From the NCBI GenBank assembly GCA_025201705.1, contig MU616917.1, positions 1 through 32,196 of the forward strand: a stretch of 32,196 bases of DNA, written 5' to 3'. The notes beneath the pieces are model-generated. The model was not told the DNA's origin, ran no database searches, and worked only from the letters and a program-made list of their open reading frames with translations. Position numbers and translations under genes: made by a program. The DNA comes from Dissophora ornata. Taxonomy: Eukaryota; Mortierellomycota; Mortierellomycetes; Mortierellales; Mortierellaceae. Within the stretch, counting starts at the first letter, position 1; every line of letters starts with the position of its first letter. Positions 1 through 30,068 of this stretch are shown one piece after another.

Positions 1-31
1 TACACTTTGCAATTGACAACTGTGCCTTTAG

Positions 32-382
32 GCTATGGGCGAAGGGATGCTTGTATGCTGTGTTGATGAGTTCAGAACCTCAATCTCTTGTTGCAGGTGC
101 CATCAGAAAATGCAGACTAAGGGCCGATCAGTCCTTTGTCCAGACTCGACATGTGGTGGTTATCGATCACCTGAATATAACTCAACCCACAAGTTGGATC
201 CAAAGACCGGTCTTCAGCGCGACCGCGACCACAACGCTGGCCAGAATATGGCCAACGCAGCCCTTAAATGGGTCAAAGAATTCAAGTGGCCAGAAGCGCT
301 AGACCGACAACTTGCCAAGAAGCAAGAAGCATCATGTGGAATGATGCAAATCCATATGGACTCGGAATCTAACTTAGTTTAG
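32..382 (+). CDS. Fanzor/TnpB-like RNA-guided nuclease, C-terminal exon (partial at left edge)
   Basis: This is the last exon of a gene that begins outside the window. The frame has a TAG at 29-31, and that AG is a good splice acceptor (CTTTAG before 32), so the exon most likely starts at 32. It encodes the diagnostic end of the TnpB/Fanzor family: VDEFRTS, a zinc ribbon (C-C-R-C, then C-P-D-S-T-C about a dozen residues later) and the motif RDRDHNAGQN, whose final Asp would be the third RuvC catalytic acid. Fanzors are eukaryotic, transposon-encoded relatives of bacterial TnpB that use a guide RNA made from the 3' end of their own element to cut DNA. The seen ribbon and RuvC-III motifs look intact. 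Whether the upstream RuvC-I and II motifs survive cannot be seen. The 30 or so residues after the motif are an unremarkable tail. The family call is firm; Fanzor1 versus Fanzor2 is not decided. Confidence 0.85.
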   Translation, partial: AMGEGMLVCCVDEFRTSISCCRCHQKMQTKGRSVLCPDSTCGGYRSPEYNSTHKLDPKTGLQRDRDHNAGQNMANAALKWVKEFKWPEALDRQLAKKQEASCGMMQIHMDSESNLV

Positions 383-1304
383 GTTTAGGTGAGTCTGCTG
401 TTGTTATTTTTGCCGCAGAAAAATCTTCGTACAAAAAATTGTTTGTGTGATTGTGTGACTAACAATTCAACTTTGGGTTGTAGGTCTATAGTGTTTATTT
501 AATTGAATATTTAACTGAAACCTAAGCTTAACAGCTCGACGTCCAGGTTAGACCAGCTACAGGGAGCAGATACAGGGTCAGGGAACAGAGGTCAGGAAAG
601 GGTAATAAATATATTACTGTGCCACCAAATAATTTATTGCCTTTGGCGGCGAACATCATCAGTCCATCCTCCGATTTGCAGTTTGAGCTGAAAGTGGTGT
701 CAGAATATTAATGTAGTTGTCAGATTTCCTGCACTTTGCTCTGTTTAGGACCATAGAGCATTGTCCTCTAAGGATGGATGCATTTGTCATCACCTTGACT
801 TTTTTTTTTTCCTTATTCAAACAGGCAATGCTGCGCAAGAACCGCCGTCATTCCATGTTGAAATTTAACCGGTCTGTTGCCATTGTAGCACGCAATAGGT
901 TATTCTTGTCAGATCGGTCTTGCCGGGAATGGAGAGCAGAGACGCGTTGAATGAGGTGAGAGCGCACTATGCTCTTCGAAAGAAAAAAAAAAGAAAAAAT
1001 AGTCGCGTCGCATGTGTTCTGAGACCTCGAAACACTAAACAAATGAGACAAACGTGCGATCTGCACATGCATAAACACATACCCGCGCACACTCCATCCC
1101 TACATCCCACACCTCACAAAGAGACAGAAACAAAAAAAAAAACCTTTCGTCCGTGTTTCTACTCCCTCTTTCCTGTCTCTCTTTTCTTAGATTTACTTTC
1201 TTCATCATCACCGTCTCTTTCTCTTTCTCTCTCTCTCTCTCGCCACTGCCCGCATACCTCGTCCTCGTCCTCGATCCTCTCAATTCGAAACAACAACGAC
1301 TATA
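383..1304. other. Intergenic: Fanzor 3' flank and ERG6 promoter
   Basis: About 920 bases without a convincing gene. The first 250-300 bases after the Fanzor stop are where the element's right end and guide-RNA scaffold would be expected, but I see no clear terminal repeat. The right half is the ERG6 promoter and leader, with A-rich and pyrimidine-rich tracts. Overlapping open frames here lack homology and contain simple sequence. Confidence 0.5.
1214..1241 (+). repeat. CT-rich microsatellite in the ERG6 leader
   Basis: An interrupted (CT)n tract of about 28 bases lies some 60 bases before the ERG6 start. Pyrimidine-rich leaders are common just upstream of highly expressed fungal genes. A regulatory role is inference. 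Confidence 0.7.
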
Positions 1305-3221
1305 ATGTCGCCTCCAACAGCAACGTCCAGTGTTATGGCCAGCCAGCGGGACCGAGACGACCTTGCGCTGTCCAAAGTCCTCCACGGCAACTCTTGGAAC
1401 GATAACAAAAACCAGACTTCATTTTTGTCAAAACTACACAAGAAGGACCGCGAGTACCAAGCGTCGGTCGTGAATGAATATCTCGATAACTGGAAGGAAC
1501 AGAAGCCAGAGAATGAGACGGATGATGATCGGGAGAAGCGCGCTGGCGCATACAAGGCTGTGTCGAATTCGTTCTATGACCTCACGACGGATTTCTATGA
1601 GGTAAGAAAAAAAATTCTCTCTCCTCTCCAATTACCAAAGTCGGTCTTGCCTACCTGGGATATAACCGACATCAACCTATTCAATTTGGAGGTAGCCAAA
1701 GCGGGGGGGGGGAAGACCTTTGTCTCTCTTTATTTTTCACTTTACGCGTCTGTCTTCCCCTTGAAGTCCCTCGCCCCATCCAACCACATTCATAAAAAAA
1801 ACGGCTCCTCAGACATCGTCTGTTGTCACTAACCCGCGAACTGAGGGATGACAGCAGTATTTACTTTTTTATTTTCTATGACCCGAAAATACCATTCTCA
1901 GAAAAAATGCAAGGAGTTTACATAGAAAGAGGAGGTGTGAGAAGAAAGAGGGGAGAACATGTTACTATTGTTTTTTCCGCTGTTTGCTTCCCCGAAAACT
2001 TTGGCATCATTACATGATCTACTAATGGGGAGAGAGGGATGAGGGACACACTAGGAGGTAGAAAAGGAGGGAAGGAAGTGGAGAAATGGAAGATAGGAGA
2101 TGCGGGATATGGATGCGCAGGGACGCGCAGGGTTGCTTGGGGTCTCGTCAGGCTTGGCAGAACTCGTTGAGCAAGAGAATGGGAAGGAAAAGGAAAGAGC
2201 GTTGTGTGTTATAGCGTGAAGAATGATGCGATGGATAACCTACAAAAAAAAGAAAAGGGAGGGAGGAAGGGGGAAGTCGCGTCGAAAGCTCTCAGTATGC
2301 TAACATGAAACTGTAACCATTGCTTTTCCGAACCTCTCTGGTTTTCTCCAATAGTACGCATGGGGCACATCCTTCCACTTTTGCAGATTCCGTCCCTATG
2401 AGCCCTTCCAACAAGCCATCGCCCGCCACGAGCACTACCTCGCCGCCAACATGGGCATCCAGTCCACCTGGAAGGTCCTCGACATCGGCTGCGGCGTTGG
2501 AGGACCCGCCCGCGAGATCGGCCACTTCACGGGCGCCCACATCACCGGTCTCAATAACAACGACTACCAGATCGCTCGCGCAAAACGTTATGCGGCCTCA
2601 TATGATCTCGAACACAAATCCGACTTTATCAAAGGCGACTTTATGAACATGCCTATCAACGATAAATCGTACGATGCCTGCTATGCCATCGAGGCTACCG
2701 TCCACGCTTCGTCCCTGGAGGGCGTCTATGGCGAAGCGTTCCGTATCCTGAAGCCAGGCGGCGTTTTTGGATGCTACGAATGGCTCATGACCGACAGTTA
2801 TGATCCCACAAACCCAGAACATCTCCGAATCGTCCGTGGATTGGAGGTTGGCAATGGCATTGCCAAGATGGTGACGGTCAAGGACTGTCTCAAAGCTCTG
2901 GAGACTGTGGGGTTCACGATTGAGATTGCAAAAAACATGGGCACAACGGACGACAAGATTAAGTGGTATTACCCACTTGAGGGAGATATTCGACAGGCAA
3001 ATGCCTTTTGGGATTATTTAACGGTCTTGAGAACTACGACGGCGGGTCGTACCGCGACGACGTACATGGTCAAGGCCTTGGAGACCTTTGGACTAGTGGC
3101 ACCAGGCAGTGCCAAGGTCTCGAGCATTCTGCAAACCGCTGCGGACTCTGTCTTGGAGGGCGCTCGTTTGGGCATCTTTACGCCCATGTATTTTTTTGTT
3201 GCAAGAAAACCCGAAGCATGA
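1305..3221 (+). CDS. ERG6: Sterol 24-C-methyltransferase
   Basis: The model has exon 1 at 1305-1601, an intron at 1602-2354 (GTAAGA...CAATAG) and exon 2 at 2355-3221, giving 387 aa, the normal size for the family. The splice joins FYE to YAWGTSFHFCRF, the conserved sterol-binding region I (residues 100-111). It is followed by the SAM-binding motif I LDIGCGVGG (about 141-149) and by EWLMTDSYDP (about 241-250). The enzyme transfers a methyl group from S-adenosylmethionine to C24 of zymosterol or lanosterol-type sterols, at the ER or lipid droplets, in ergosterol synthesis. The start is the first ATG of the frame after the pyrimidine leader; the next in-frame ATG is ten codons later and also possible. 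The intron is unusually long for this window (753 nt). The next gene, on the opposite strand, is a sterol isomerase acting on the same pathway. Confidence 0.95.
1602..2354 (+). other. Long ERG6 intron
   Basis: The 753-nt intron starts GTAAGA and ends TCCAATAG, with a CTAAC-like branch region near 2300. It is several times longer than most other introns here (70-250 nt) and holds G-rich and A-rich low-complexity stretches. I see no conserved gene inside it on either strand. Confidence 0.8.

Positions 3222-3325: not shown

Positions 3326-3387
<62 letters not shown>
3325..3387 (+). repeat. AATAAA followed by a 60-nt A homopolymer
   Basis: AATAAA at 3325-3330 lies about 100 bases after the ERG6 stop and could be its poly(A) signal. 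It runs straight into an uninterrupted run of 60 A residues (3328-3387). Such a run can be a slipped microsatellite, the A-tail of an inserted retro-copy, or an assembly artefact. ERG6 itself retains its intron, so it is not a processed copy. Confidence 0.9.
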
Positions 3388-24160: not shown

Positions 24161-25605
24161 TTACTTGCTACTCCTGTGGTGATGCTGGTGCTTTCTCTTC
24201 TTCTTGAGAGACTTTGACTGGTTGAACTGAATGGCAGTAGCAATGCCGTTGGTAGCCGTAGTAGTGATGGCAGACGTCTTCATCAAGAGCTTGTCGCATC
24301 CCAGGTTAGTCCACGAGGCCGCATAACGTTGGCCCATGAAAGTAAGCAGGTTCGAGGCGACATCTGGCATGGGCGAGGTCATCTTGGCAAGGTGGTTCTT
24401 GATGCCCATGAGATACTGAGGTGCGATATTGTTAAGGTTGTTGCAGTAGTTCCTGACCGAGTTAGCCGGAATGGCACGGAGCACAGGCTGGTTCACACCT
24501 TGACGATAGAGATTGAGCTTGGTCAAAGAGGGGACGTTGTTGGACAAAACCATGGGGTCAGTTGAGGGGACCATGGCCACGGCGCCGCCTTGCCTTGAGG
24601 CGTGGAGCTCATTCAGAGCCATGGCGCCGAGCATGACGCCTTGCTCCATCAGCGAGGGGGCTTTGAAGGGCTGGCATCCGATAGCCTATTACAAAAAAAA
24701 ACAATCGATAGCGAGGGAGTGAGTGAGTGAAGATAAATATGCAGCGGTCTTAATTATGAACAGGCTGGAAGGGACAAGTAAAACTTACAGGATCGATAAA
24801 GTCGGTAACAAGAGCGTTATCGGAGCCGTTGCTGATCACCGTGGCGGCAGGTAATTTACCCCTGTTCGCCTGGGTGTTCTGTGCAAACGTGGTGCCAGTC
24901 ATGAGATAGGTGGTGATGACGTTGTCGCTCTGATCTTGATCGACGACACCGAAGGCGCGGGTGGTGGGGCATTTTCTGCGATTGACATCAACACCGAGGA
25001 CAGGGATTTTGACGTTCTTGGCAGCGTTGACAGCGGCGAAGAACTGCTTGGAATTGCAGAACGCGACCTGGCCAAAGACATCTTGGTTCGAGATGCCATT
25101 GACGCATGTGCCGATGTCTCCCTGGAGGGTGACCGAGTTGGCATTGGCTCCAAACCAGAGACCGACAACCGCACCGGCGGGCAGGGTTGGAACGATGGGC
25201 GCGATGGCGGGCTTGGTGCCTAGATTTACCACAAAAGGAACATAAAATAATGTACGCGGTCAGTGACACAGAATAAAATTGAAGAACTCAAATTGTTTCT
25301 TCTGCGCGTCTCATCTTCGAAACATTACCTTGATTGATGACCAGGGGGTGGTAGACGCTAAATGCGCCGGTGGCAGGGTCAAAGACTGTAGCCTCAACAA
25401 AGACCTGCTCGTTGGGGTTCGTTTGATCGCAGTTGCCAGCCATAAGGATGTAGGGTGTGGCAAGACCCTTCGCCGTCAGAGGGTTCGGTGGGACGGTAAT
25501 GGTGCAGGCACCGGGATCAGCGGCTGCGGCCGCTGCTGCATCGACATTATAAAGGCCTGCGATGACTGAGAGAGAGAGGATGAGGGCAGGGGCAAGCTTA
25601 ACCAT
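24161..25605 (-). CDS. Secreted protein of unknown function, paralogue A
   Basis: Three exons, 25605-25329, 25219-24789 and 24685-24161, give 410 aa. I do not recognise the family. The N-terminus MVKLAPALILSLSVIAGLYNVDA is a clear signal peptide followed by an Ala run. The mature part contains several Cys (CTITVPP, GNCDQ, GTCVNG, VAFCNSKQ, KCPTT, AIGCQP, NYCNN, NLGCDK), so disulphides are likely, and sequons such as NGS. The region with VVGLWFGANANSVTLQG and the final YAASWTNLGCDKLL are the best-conserved blocks against paralogue B. It ends in a strongly basic and His-rich tail (KKKRKHQHHHR). Both introns are at the same places and phases as in B. No transmembrane segment follows the signal, so export is expected. 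Enzyme, adhesin or effector roles cannot be told apart. Confidence 0.85.
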
Positions 25606-27131
25606 ATTGGGCTATTATGCGCGCGTGGAAAAGTGATAGTTTTGAGAGCAAGAGCAAGAGCCTAGTTGTTGCAGGTGGACGCAGTGCAGGAGGTGGAGTT
25701 GGCTGGAGACGTGGGAGAGAGAGAGGGAGATAGATAACGATTGATGGCTATGAGGGCGGAGTGCTGTTAGAGCAGGGAAGAGAAAATCTACGCTGAGGAA
25801 GGCTAGGAATGAGGAGGGAGAAGAGGAGACGTCGTTGCTCTTTATATGGTCCTCAGATCTCGGATGGTTGAGTGAAGAGATTGATTTGATATCGAGGGTA
25901 CACTGAAATGGTCTACATTTTTTGTTGACTAATAAATCAAAGGGGTATGTTAAATGCAGCAACGTACAGCGGAATACATAAATGACCCAATTCAAGAGAC
26001 GATTCTTCCGGTGAACTGCTGATATGTTGACCGAAGCCCTATTGGACTCGAAGGACAACCAGCTACGCCGCATTTGCCGACACAACAAATCAAAACATCC
26101 AATTATGCTTGTACCTGGACGCCGACTTCTCCGAAATACATGTAAATTGCTCTATCTCGACCTTGTGGACATTGTCATTACAGGAGACAGTGAGAGTGTG
26201 CTTGACGTTAGAGAAATGCAAACACGCATGCGCATAACTAGGCAACGTACACTTGGGTTAGCCGCCGAGACCAGATTGCATTGTGTCTGAGAGTCTCCTA
26301 CTCGCTCGCTCTGGGATGTGCCCTCACAGTTGTATTCTTTGGTGTTGGTAGGGAAGCAATATCGCCCTGCAAAATACCTGTCAGTACCCAGAAATCATGA
26401 ATAAACAAAAGAAAAATCGATGTTTCCAGGTTTTGTGAAGTTTACCACGTACTTCAAGTATGACGATGTCATTTCAGCCTGTAATATACTGCATTTCTGC
26501 ACGCGTGCCGCATGGATTTGACGCGTCTTTTCGTGCGTATACCCATGTATTATCTCCATTTCTCTACTATTACTAATGATACATTTTTCTCAATGTTGTA
26601 TTCACAAGCGTTCTGCACGAAATGTACCCACAACGGCAGGCGGCTAGCTTTCTCTCCTCCGCGTTATCAGTTCCTCAAAGTTTTCCTGTTGATATAGTCC
26701 ATGTCTTTATCCGGGTTCTCGTCGTCGTCCAGCGTCTCACTTTGTCCCGGTTCCTTATCGTTGTCCACCTCGTCGTCGTAGTCTTGTTAACCCGCCTCTG
26801 CTCCCAATCGTTTTCTTGCATATCATACTGGCACAACAAAAATCGAATTACAGATACGGGACACTCGTAGGTGGACGTCCTACGTTGTTTTCCATTAGCG
26901 CTGTATGTATATCCGTCATTATAACGTGAAGAAATGGAGCAAAGGAGGAATCATATATTTATTATTGAGGTGATTTTTTTGGCCTCCTCTTCGGCACACC
27001 CTCGGGGAGACTCCTGTAACAAAGGGGTGCAATTAACATATCCACCAAAGCCGAGCGTACGAGTTGTTTTAGCATGTAGTACATCCTCTAGATGACCAGT
27101 AGTTATTTCATTCAAAAAGTATACACTAATT
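25606..27131. other. Intergenic: upstream region of paralogue A and 3' flank of paralogue B
   Basis: About 1.5 kb without a convincing gene. The part beside paralogue A (25620-25740) is GA-rich on the + strand. From about 26010 to 26270 the sequence resembles the upstream DNA of paralogue B (see the repeat entries), so it belongs to the duplicated segment. 26300-27100 shows nothing I can identify. Confidence 0.5.
26096..26262. repeat. Duplicated upstream segment, copy next to paralogue A
   Basis: Diverged but recognisable similarity to 30069-30265. Shared strings include AATTA(T/C)GCTTG, GAACGCAGACTT/GGACGCCGACTT, AACACGCATG and GGCAA(C/T)GT(A/G)CACT, in the same order. It lies about 490 bases upstream of the paralogue A start. 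Confidence 0.6.
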
Positions 27132-28688
27132 TTAAATTAATCGTTTCGTGTTCTGCTTTCTCTTCTTCTTGAGAGGCTTTGACTGATTGAACTGGATGGC
27201 AGTAGCAATGCCGTTGGTGGCCGTAGTAGTAATAGCAGACGTTTTCATCAAGAGCTTGTCGCATCCCAGGTTAGTCCACGAGGCCGCATAACGTTGGCCC
27301 ATGAAAGTAAGCAGGTTCGAGGCGACAGCTGGCATAGGCGAGGGTTTGTTGGCAATGGCATTCATGATGCCCATGAGATATGTGGGACCAACATTGTTAA
27401 GGTTGGTGCAGTAGGTCGTGACCATGTTGGCCGGAATGGCGCGGATCACAGGCTGGTCAACACCTTGACGATAGAGATTGAGTTTGGCCAAAGAGGGGGC
27501 GGCGTTGGATAAAACCATGGGGTCGGTTGATGGGACCAAGGCCACAGGAGCGCCTTGTTTCGTGGCCTGGAGCTCATTCAGAGCCATGGCGCCGAGCATG
27601 ACGCCTTGCTCCATCAGCGAGGGAGCTTTGAAAGGTGTGCATCCGATAGCCTGTTAAAAAAACAATCGATAGCGAGGGAGTGAGTGAGTGAAGATAAATA
27701 TGTGGCAGTCTTAATTATGGACAGGCTGGAAGGGACAAGTAAAACTTACAGGATCGATAAAGTCGGCGACAAGGGCATTATCGGAGCCGTTGCTGATCAC
27801 CGTGGCGGCAGGGAATTTACCCCTGTTCGCCTGGGTGTTCTGTGCAAACGTGGTGCCAGCCATGAGATAAGTGGTGATAAGGTTGTCGCTCTGATCTTGA
27901 TCGATAATACCAAAGGAGCGAGTGGTTGGGCAGGCTTTCCCATTGACATCAACACCGAGGGCAGGGATTTTGACGTTCTTGGCAGCGTTGACAGCGGTGA
28001 AGAACTGCTTGGAATTGCAGAACGCGACCTGGCCAAAGACATCTTGGTTCGAGAGACCGTTGACGCATGTGGCGATGTCTCCCTGGAGGGTGACCGAGTT
28101 GGCATTGGCTCCAAACCAGATACCGACGACCGCACCGGCGGGTAGTGTTGGGACGACAGGCGCAACGGCGGGATTGGTGCCTGGATTTACCACAAAGGAA
28201 GGTTGAAACGCAAAGAAAAAATGATACGGTCAGGGTACAGGAACAATATAAAATTGGAGGGAAATGATTCGACGAACAAGACGTATCAATTCTCTCGTGA
28301 ATTAATTTCCGCGCAAACGTTATTGTTGTCCATCCGCCCTCGATGCGCCAAATGCGGATCGGATGACAGAGCATGTCTCTGCGCGTCTCATCTTTGAAAC
28401 ATTACCTTGATTGACAACCAGGGGATGGTAGACGCTAAATGCGCCGGTGGCAGGGTCAAAGACTGTAGCCTCAACAAAGACCTGCTCGTTGGGGTTCGTT
28501 TGATCGCAGTTGCCAGCCATAAGGATGTAGGGTGTCGCAAGACCCGTCGCTGTCAGAGGGTTCGGTGGGACGGTGATGGTGCAGGCACCGGGGTTAGCGG
28601 CTGCTGCTGCGGCCGCGGCTGCATCGACATTATAAAGGCCCGCGATGGCAGAGAGGGAGAGGATGAGGGCAGGGGCAAGCTTAACCAT
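27132..28688 (-). CDS. Secreted protein of unknown function, paralogue B
   Basis: Exons 28688-28406, 28180-27750 and 27650-27132 give 410 aa, the same length as paralogue A. It has the same signal peptide (one V to A change, two extra Ala in the following run), the same Cys positions and the same intron positions. Differences cluster in the first half of exon 3 (for example HASRQGGAVAM against QATKQGAPVAL), while about 50 residues before the tail are identical. The C-terminus again has KKKRK, but the last residues differ (QNTKRLI). Intron 2 is almost the same as in A (about 100 nt), whereas intron 1 is about twice as long (225 against 109 nt) because of extra sequence near 28250-28370. The pair is a direct tandem duplication with about 1.5 kb between copies. 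Function is unknown. Confidence 0.86.
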
Positions 28689-28760
28689 TTTGGGCTATTA
28701 CGCGAGTGTGGAAAAATGATTTTTATATTTGAGAGCAAGGGCGAGAGCCTAGTAGTTGCA

Positions 28761-28832
28761 GGCGGACGTGATACAGAAGGTGGACGTTGTACAGAAGGTG
28801 GACGTTGTACGGGGGGTGGACGTTGTACGGGA
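28761..28832. repeat. 18-bp tandem repeat upstream of paralogue B
   Basis: Four units of 18 bp (28761, 28779, 28797, 28815) of the form GGTGGACGTTGTACRGRR, followed by a partial unit. It sits 73-144 bases before the ATG, in the promoter or leader. The matching place in paralogue A (about 25674-25700) has only one unit plus the partial one, so the array expanded after the duplication. Confidence 0.85.
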
Positions 28833-30068
28833 GGTGGAGTTGGCTGGAGACGTGGAAAAGAGAGAGGGGAAGAGACAGCGATTGATAATTATGAGGGCAG
28901 AGTGCTGTTAGGGCAGGGATGAGAAAAGCGACGCAGAGGAAAGGCTGAGGAAAGGCTGAGGAGGGAGAAGAAAACGATCTTTGGGGAGAGGAGACCTCGT
29001 TCACCTTTATATGTTGGTCCTCGAATTTCGCAGGGTCGGGCGGAGAGATTGACCAATGAAGCAAAGATGTGCGCAAAGGTACCGTTTTTTTTTGTTGTTG
29101 TTGTTATTGTGCAAAGTACAGTACTGTGCAGAAAAGTACAGCGGTACAGCGGAATGCTTAAAATGTCCAATTCAATAGAATACTGCTGGATACTTCTCCA
29201 GTGACCAGCTGGATCATTGTTTCCATTTGCGTGCTGTCGAGGCTTTTTGGTGACTACACTCGTCCACCACTCAGCATGATTTCTATTTTTCACCCAAGAC
29301 CAGATATCATTCTCACCCTGCAGCCGTTGGCCCCCTATCTCTATGCGTCGTACCCAGAGATGTTTGACAAAAGTAATGCAATGCAACACCGAGGGCGCGC
29401 ATTCGATTTTTGTTGACGGAAAGTCAGGGCCATGTCCGACCGGTTTGCTCAGTCTTTACTCATCGACTGTCACACCCCCTGATAACTGGAAACAAAACAA
29501 AATCAGGAACCTCGCCTCTGGCCTCCATTTTTCCAATCCTTACACTCCCTTTCCTGGCCTTGCGGTTAACTGGATGCCCCTATTCCTTGCTTTATGCCGC
29601 GCACCGGTAGTTGGCGACTCAATATGGATGCTCCATTTCCTGCTATCAGATCCCCATCGCTCCATGTGCAGTGTACAGTGCCGTCGCAGTAATGATTTAT
29701 TTGTCAGCTCGACTCTTTTTTTTTTGATCGCAGAAAAATGATGTATTGTTACTATGATACTCTGATCCCAGGCATCTGAGCTCCGAGAAAGATAAAAGAT
29801 CCAGGCTGTTAGGAGAATTAGCTGGGCGTATGATATTAATCCTGCAGACCCGTTTCATCAGCGACGCAGTGCAAAAAGTAAGATACATGTAGTACAATGC
29901 ATGTATTGTTGACGAACCCTGCTACCTTAACCTGCAGCCTATCGTTGTTACCCCGTTCCAACGATTCCTCGTTTTTTTTTGTCCCCCCGTGCATGACAGC
30001 ATGGCAATTTTGAAATCCTGGCCTGCCCCTGCGTCCATGTCGCATATGTAACCACATGAAGACAGCCA

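Follow-up and report, generated by a model that had tools for sequence, protein, structure and literature searches.

Predicted right end of a Fanzor-type element with recent mobility in Dissophora ornata, and relatives that carry a flap-nuclease domain

The first few hundred bases of one contig of the fungus Dissophora ornata raise the question of which gene, and which kind of mobile element, a short exon with nuclease-like motifs upstream of ERG6 belongs to. The original prediction took this exon for the C-terminal half of a Fanzor, a eukaryotic TnpB-like nuclease. The window, i.e. the whole stretch of DNA that was analysed, is an entire contig (C356, 32,196 bp) of an assembly of 31.4 Mb in 968 contigs. 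The upstream exons of the Fanzor gene are absent from the window because this complete contig begins within the gene, and neither RuvC-I nor a flap domain is present in it. The features of the exon and of its upstream border are the following.

Positions 1 to 31, + strand: predicted 3' end of the upstream intron, with a putative branch point TTGAC (13-17) and the acceptor TTTAG (27-31).
Positions 32 to 382, + strand: final coding exon of the Fanzor gene; open frame of 116 codons and the stop TAG (380-382).
Positions 68 to 70, + strand: predicted catalytic Glu of RuvC-II at the alternative position of Fanzor type; GAG, codon 13, in E-FRTSIS-C, following the E-x6-C-x2-C rule (stated in a passage of PMC10711439).
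Positions 89 to 154, + strand: four-cysteine zinc ribbon C-x2-C-x12-C-x4-C; Cys codons 89-91, 98-100, 137-139 and 152-154.
Positions 155 to 226, + strand: spacer from the last ribbon Cys to the RuvC-III Asp; 24 residues, alignment A6.
Positions 218 to 247, + strand: RuvC-III motif RDRDHNAGQN, with the predicted catalytic Asp codon at 227-229.

The reading frame from 32 to 382 is open over its 116 codons, without stop or frameshift, as had been claimed. The splice acceptor, which had been called normal, was borne out as well: the TAG at bases 29-31, in frame, directly abuts codon A1 in a context (TTGAC...CTGTGCCTTTAG followed by GCT) that resembles a 3' splice site, and homology with the predicted proteins of relatives begins exactly at base 32 (P0015 aligns over 32-325 and P0017 over 32-334). 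VDEFRTS, the four-cysteine ribbon (Cys20, Cys23, Cys36 and Cys41 of the exon) and RDRDHNAGQN are all present in the order given by the original prediction. This order is that of TnpB and Fanzor proteins, but the spacing, which had been described as typical too, deviates: the second knuckle is C-x4-C instead of CxxC, and 24 residues lead from Cys41 to the RuvC-III Asp. In alignment A6, the spacer is 20 columns longer in the window than in the paralogues on contigs C949, C123 and C21, and the alternative RuvC-II Glu is conserved in relatives. The Pfam profile Cas12f1-like_TNB (PF07282) matches the exon with E = 1.6e-4 and 22.2 bits, under its cut-off of 26.3. Between the exon and its paralogue on contig C4, which is 72% identical, dN is 0.17 and dS is 1.66 (dN/dS about 0.10 over 103 codons), and we therefore regard the exon as protein coding and under strong purifying selection.

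ERG6, named as the neighbour in the original prediction, does lie past the element in the same orientation (Sterol_MT_C, 87.6 bits on 2355-3218), with a presumed start codon at 1305, about 0.8 kb past the end of the element. Just downstream of ERG6, positions 3328-3387 form an unbroken run of 60 A. Farther along, the minus strand carries two closely similar genes in tandem, which begin with MVKLAPALILSLS (24161-25611 and 27132-28694); two pieces of one copy of this gene gave no Pfam match at E ≤ 0.001. A tandem repeat of an 18-base unit (28760-28856, 4.7 copies) lies upstream of one gene of the pair.

With a fragment as query, 10 of the 11 candidate proteins were related at E ≤ 0.001 (best 2.8e-44). 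Their hosts include Modicella reniformis, Mortierella sp. AM989, Entomortierella beljakovae and Linnemannia zychae, all of which we take to be Mortierellales. A second protein search returned 3 related proteins among 11 candidates, the best being P0011 (Dissophora ornata, 831 aa, partial). Over 92 residues, this protein and the window exon do not differ (100% identity). It extends far upstream, where it begins behind the flap domain described below, and carries VLAVDPGIKNT, i.e. the DPG motif of RuvC-I. Thus, of the two catalytic residues that the original prediction had left to be looked for, the RuvC-I Asp is found in the matching D. ornata protein, and the RuvC-II Glu lies inside the exon itself, at codon 13 in the alternative position. 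The public gene model of P0011 omits about 24 codons (window 32-103), among them those for the catalytic Glu and for the first two Cys; as P0015, P0017, P0012, P0002, P0004 and P0007 contain this stretch, the omission is probably an annotation error.

We also searched with residues 260-831 of P0011, and 9 proteins were found, P0011 included. Among them are P0015 (D. globulifera, 1168 aa), P0016 (Mortierella sp. AD010, 1128 aa, partial and without the ribbon) and P0017 (Mortierella sp. NVP85, 1177 aa). The DPG motif is present in P0011, P0012 and P0014-P0018, P0019 reads YPG, and P0013 does not include the region. DPG, the alternative Glu, the four cysteines and RD occur within a single protein in P0012, P0015 and P0017 each; P0004 lacks RuvC-III. 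The fingerprint of the family, according to PMC10711439, is DPG together with a Glu that precedes the zinc finger by six residues; PMC3627910 describes a four-cysteine zinc finger with RD 5-50 residues further on. In the window, 23 residues separate Cys41 from the R of RD, which is within the latter range. The exon does not match the strict search expression in PMC10711439 (CxxC-x(12,18)-CxxC-x(4,8)-D), given the C-x4-C second knuckle and the 24 residues before the Asp; in the part of the paper concerned, this expression is not stated as a requirement for the family.

The TNB score is over the cut-off of 26.3 in P0002 (26.5) and P0017 (28.0), and under it in the window, P0004, P0007, P0009, P0012 and P0015. 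Profile A6 combines 11 C-termini: 8 belong to the window clade, one is the paralogue from C949, and 2 come from another clade of this genome that is more canonical and may raise the score. Against the PDB, 20 of its 24 matches at E ≤ 1 are of TnpB/Cas12/Fanzor type (best 2.2e-5), and they include TnpB, Cas12f, the TnpB-like L79 and the Parasitella Fanzor1 (0.0037). Single-sequence PDB searches with the window exon and with P0011 returned no Fanzor or TnpB, and the longer profile A4 gave three PDB matches, the best being FEN1 at 0.02, and no Fanzor or TnpB. The paralogue on C21 has weak matches to the TnpB family (3 of 4, E 0.08-0.33), the RuvC-I region of P0012 weakly matches Cas12f2 (E = 0.0039), and PADLOC gave weak Cas12 matches. 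The assignment to Fanzor made in the original prediction is thus supported by the motifs of the exon, the D. ornata match with its DPG, the relatives and the ribbon profile. From host and context, the gene would belong to Fanzor1. Viral and prokaryote contigs, scanned with one or two short peptide patterns each, gave no confirmed relatives.

We then investigated whether the copy is young, as had been suggested. Positions 1-410 of contig C840 repeat window positions 81-490 with one mismatch (409 of 410 identical), and the flanks differ from base 491 onward. The identity stops after 490, and the right end of the element is therefore placed at about 490. The element family of the window is recently mobile, and the young age of the copy is supported. 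Both contigs begin inside the element, presumably because the repeat is too similar to assemble. The right end comprises the following features.

Positions 383 to 490, + strand: 3' untranslated stretch to the end of the element, a candidate omega RNA scaffold (fold z = -3.08).
Positions 452 to 490, + strand: terminal hairpin closing at the right end of the element, predicted by RNA folding.
Positions 472 to 490, + strand: right-end motif TTTGGGTTGTAGGTCTATA, exact in C840 and altered in C4, C364, C30 and C17.
Positions 491 to 510, + strand: first bases of the flank, which would serve as guide under the omega RNA model; this flank differs from that of C840.

Only 2 of 200 shuffled versions of 383-490 fold as well as or better than the native stretch. 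This structured 3' end, abutting the flank, lies where the omega RNA of a Fanzor and its guide would be expected by analogy, and the terminal TA/TATA of the motif may be target sequence. The right ends on C4 and on C364, the latter a degenerate copy with an altered version of the motif, fold differently from the hairpin of the window. No Rfam family matched 383-490 at gathering score; over window positions 1-1300, Rfam gave one snoRNA match at chance level. The tRNA scan was empty. Inverted copies of the motif do not exceed chance (forward 1, reverse 5; controls 2 and 0), and the search for inverted or terminal inverted repeats in window 1-1300 and in the C30 region gave nothing convincing. 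The motif also occurs on C30 (L071:3902-3921) and on C17 (L072:164-183, preceded by just 163 bases), where no Fanzor exon was recognised; other elements may therefore share this terminus. On C4, a DDE_Tnp_4 fragment (22.6 bits, cut-off 24.8) and a chromodomain (43 bits) were found (L009:6076-6881) upstream of the 5'-truncated Fanzor exon. The copy count that the original prediction had called for gave at least 85 Cas12f1-like_TNB matches in the genome, at least 54 of them over the Pfam cut-off; this is a large expansion of Fanzors, in which recent duplicates are probable. Three TNB matches have equal scores and one TAG each (C96:64149, C4:140448 and C209:75).

Upstream of the RuvC parts, full-length relatives carry another domain. 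P0015, P0016, P0017 and P0020 start with MG[VI]xGVF and contain H-x-DG, GE[AT]D, DSD and NDY. A profile of these four (A2) has as its best PDB match the FEN1 structure 1a76 (E = 0.003), and 9 of its 11 matches at E ≤ 1 are FEN1. Profile A5 was built from 11 of 12 flap-like domains read from this genome, namely those of C28, C123 and ten further loci (C112, with a cut frame, was left out); 8 of these 11 have a ribbon downstream, and those of C28, C20:68650 and C425 do not. A5 matches FEN1 5zod with E = 1.4e-10, and 35 of its 39 PDB matches at E ≤ 1 belong to FEN1, RAD2, EXO1, XPG or GEN1. At E ≤ 0.1, all 11 members match NCBIfam fen_arch and 9 match Pfam XPG_I. Seven carboxylates (D31, D89, E181, D183, D202, D204 and D252 of P0017) are invariant in the four sequences of A2. 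The last six coincide with those of FEN1 in the alignment of A5 with FEN1, and we assume that the first corresponds as well, by comparison with the known FEN1 motifs. Within A5, E187, D189, D209, D211 and D259 are invariant in all 11 sequences, while the first Asp is found in 7 of the 9 that cover it (Asn in C237, no Asp in the reading of C661). In P0015 and P0017, NCBIfam finds just flap endonuclease-1 at the front and TnpB at the end, both weak and far under the cut-offs. Judged from its sequence, the N-terminal domain of the relatives (about 345 aa) is a flap nuclease of FEN1/XPG type with its catalytic carboxylates in place.

The flap domain and RuvC-I are found within one predicted protein in three genomes (P0015, P0016 and P0017). 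Moreover, P0020 spans the junction of the flap and Fanzor parts, and P0021, which begins directly after the flap core, continues into the Fanzor part. The linker reads YRTSGN in P0015 and FLTSGN in P0016, and this motif is absent in P0017. These predicted proteins show relatives of about 1170 aa to consist of a flap domain, a basic linker and the recognition and RuvC parts of a Fanzor. For this assembly, 41 flap-like loci, merged from 25 and 47 flap-region matches, were compared with the 85 ribbon matches, both sets being lower bounds. Among the matches listed, a ribbon follows 13 of the 41 loci within 6 kb on the same strand; in 12 cases the distance is 2758-3117 bp and the ribbon is over the Pfam cut-off. 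In comparison, a ribbon lies upstream on the same strand at 1 locus of 41 and on the opposite strand at 2 of 41, and about 0.008 are expected per locus. XPG_I and TNB are both over their Pfam cut-offs on C661, C298 and C21. Among the same listed matches, 42 of the 54 over-cut-off ribbons have no flap match within 6 kb upstream, and 28 of the 41 flap-like loci lack a ribbon in the 6 kb that follow. Some of the unpaired loci may result from divergence, truncation or contig ends, and some Fanzors may also be flap-free.

We consider it quite probable, from these sequence comparisons, that a Fanzor-type element with recent mobility has its right end at window positions 32-490 and that its gene belongs to a dual-nuclease variant; the window's own gene would then share the flap-nuclease/Fanzor architecture of its relatives. 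Other explanations were weighed. The copies of the window and of C840 could be short truncated elements, i.e. a last exon and a right end kept as cargo or relic, as on C4, which retains both and where no upstream gene part was recognised. Nor was a close upstream half of the window gene found in the assembly: residues 1-738 of P0011 gave no close match in it, the best being C477 (56% over 446-598) and C28 (50-52%). However, the homology of the window runs five residues beyond that of C4, up to the splice-acceptor-like site where the relatives' proteins continue, the 831-aa D. ornata protein that is identical to the exon over 92 residues extends far upstream, and C356 and C840 both break inside the element, as longer identical repeats presumably do. 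A truncated element is thus unlikely. It is still less probable that the gene predictors joined what are really two adjacent genes of one element, a flap nuclease and a Fanzor. Two loci would fit such a merger. C28 has both parts, 50-52% identical to P0011, is broken by an in-frame stop in the linker and comes to an end just before DPG; its flap reading frame closes in a stop overlapping a GTAAGT donor, and the next one is in another frame. C123 has a separate flap frame and linker/recognition frames; its RuvC-I-like stretch reads LDGG where DPG would be expected, and its ribbon has the alternative Glu; against A2, its flap part is strong (1.1e-15) and its linker (0.095) and ribbon (0.37) weak, and a scripted search for a GT(A/G)AG intron joining its flap and Fanzor frames found none. 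On the other side stand the same fusion in three genomes with a similar linker in P0015 and P0016, P0020 and P0021, of which the former crosses the junction in a single protein and the latter runs from behind the flap core into the Fanzor part, and the uniform spacing between flap and ribbon in this genome. Finally, an unrelated zinc-ribbon protein has almost no likelihood. The exon alone scores under the Pfam cut-off and a single-sequence PDB search yields no Fanzor, yet the E-x6-C4-RD order, the DPG of relatives and the ribbon profile (TnpB/Cas12/Fanzor type in 20 of 24 PDB matches) oppose it; this candidate was ruled out by the PDB matches of A6 and by the DPG, alternative Glu, four cysteines and RD of the relatives.

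If the dual-nuclease reading is right, the two halves could act on the same site. An omega RNA from the 3' untranslated region and the right end would carry flanking target sequence as its guide, and the RuvC half would cut the matching site free of the element; this step is proposed by analogy with characterised Fanzors (as described in parts of PMC10432273 and PMC11423790). The flap-nuclease half might then remove 5' flaps or resect 5' ends at the R-loop or break, repair would tend to restore the element with the intact allele or sister as template, and the element would be kept or spread. That a single polypeptide works in this way, its RuvC half opening and cutting the chosen site and its FEN1-type half processing flaps or 5' ends at the same R-loop, the element thereby dictating the repair of the break, is a tentative proposal that we place somewhat below an even chance. 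It is also possible, if on balance doubtful, that the flap domain does not trim target breaks but serves excision or insertion of the element, or processes the omega RNA at its 5' side. Enzymes of the FEN1 family also act on RNA-primed flaps and bubbles, and no transposase lies beside the right end of the window copy, its left side being missing. Nothing speaks directly against such a role, though nucleases of the TnpB family are believed to use RuvC for processing their own RNA.

A literature search for Fanzor or TnpB with flap nucleases or Mortierella (subscription papers and supplements were outside its scope) found no description of such a fusion. By their titles, PMC12719977, PMC11237433 and PMC7286691, in which both terms of a pair occur, do not deal with one. 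The words "fused" and "fusion" are absent from PMC10432273 and PMC3627910, "fusion" is absent from PMC11423790, and "fused" in PMC10711439 refers to tags. N-terminal extensions as such are already known, since a legend in PMC10432273 mentions that Fanzors acquired various ones. According to a passage of the same paper, it is not known what Fanzors do biologically. In this respect, an RNA-guided cutter fused to a repair-type nuclease is a testable clue that the element may steer the repair of its own cuts and, if active, would combine programmable cutting and end processing in one chain.

Compared with known systems, the gene and its relatives are close to Fanzor1 (SpuFz1, GtFz1 and PpFz1) in the DPG of RuvC-I, the alternative RuvC-II Glu, the four-cysteine ribbon and the RuvC-III Asp, in being part of a eukaryotic mobile element, and in a structured 3' end at the expected place of an omega RNA. 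Most Fanzor1 proteins have 600-700 aa and a relatively conserved domain set (according to a passage of PMC11423790), whereas here the relatives reach about 1170 aa and open with a flap nuclease, the second knuckle is C-x4-C, and 24 residues lie ahead of the RuvC-III Asp. The N-terminal domain has the MG start, DG, ExD, DxD and NDY in the order of FEN1, as in the FEN1/XPG/EXO1/GEN1 family. These enzymes are known as stand-alone or DNA-repair proteins; unlike them, the flap domain here heads an RNA-guided-type nuclease of a mobile element. The Mucor Fanzor elements MCi-2 and MCi-5 also reside in an early-diverging fungus and have no recognisable terminal inverted repeats; the copies of MCi-2 share a 3' region and those of MCi-5 carry a Harbinger transposase, and in the passages of PMC3627910 that describe these elements, in contrast to the family of the window, no flap-nuclease fusion is mentioned. 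The DDE_Tnp_4 fragment upstream on C4, which we presume to be linked to Harbinger, recalls the transposase of MCi-5. Finally, in the viral Fanzor1 elements PGv-1 and Mariner-2_PGv, a second nuclease likewise travels in the same element, encoded by a separate gene (GIY-YIG or another endonuclease; as given in part of PMC3627910). There, the second nuclease is a separate protein of another fold, whereas here it is FEN1-like and, in the relatives, predicted to be fused to the Fanzor.
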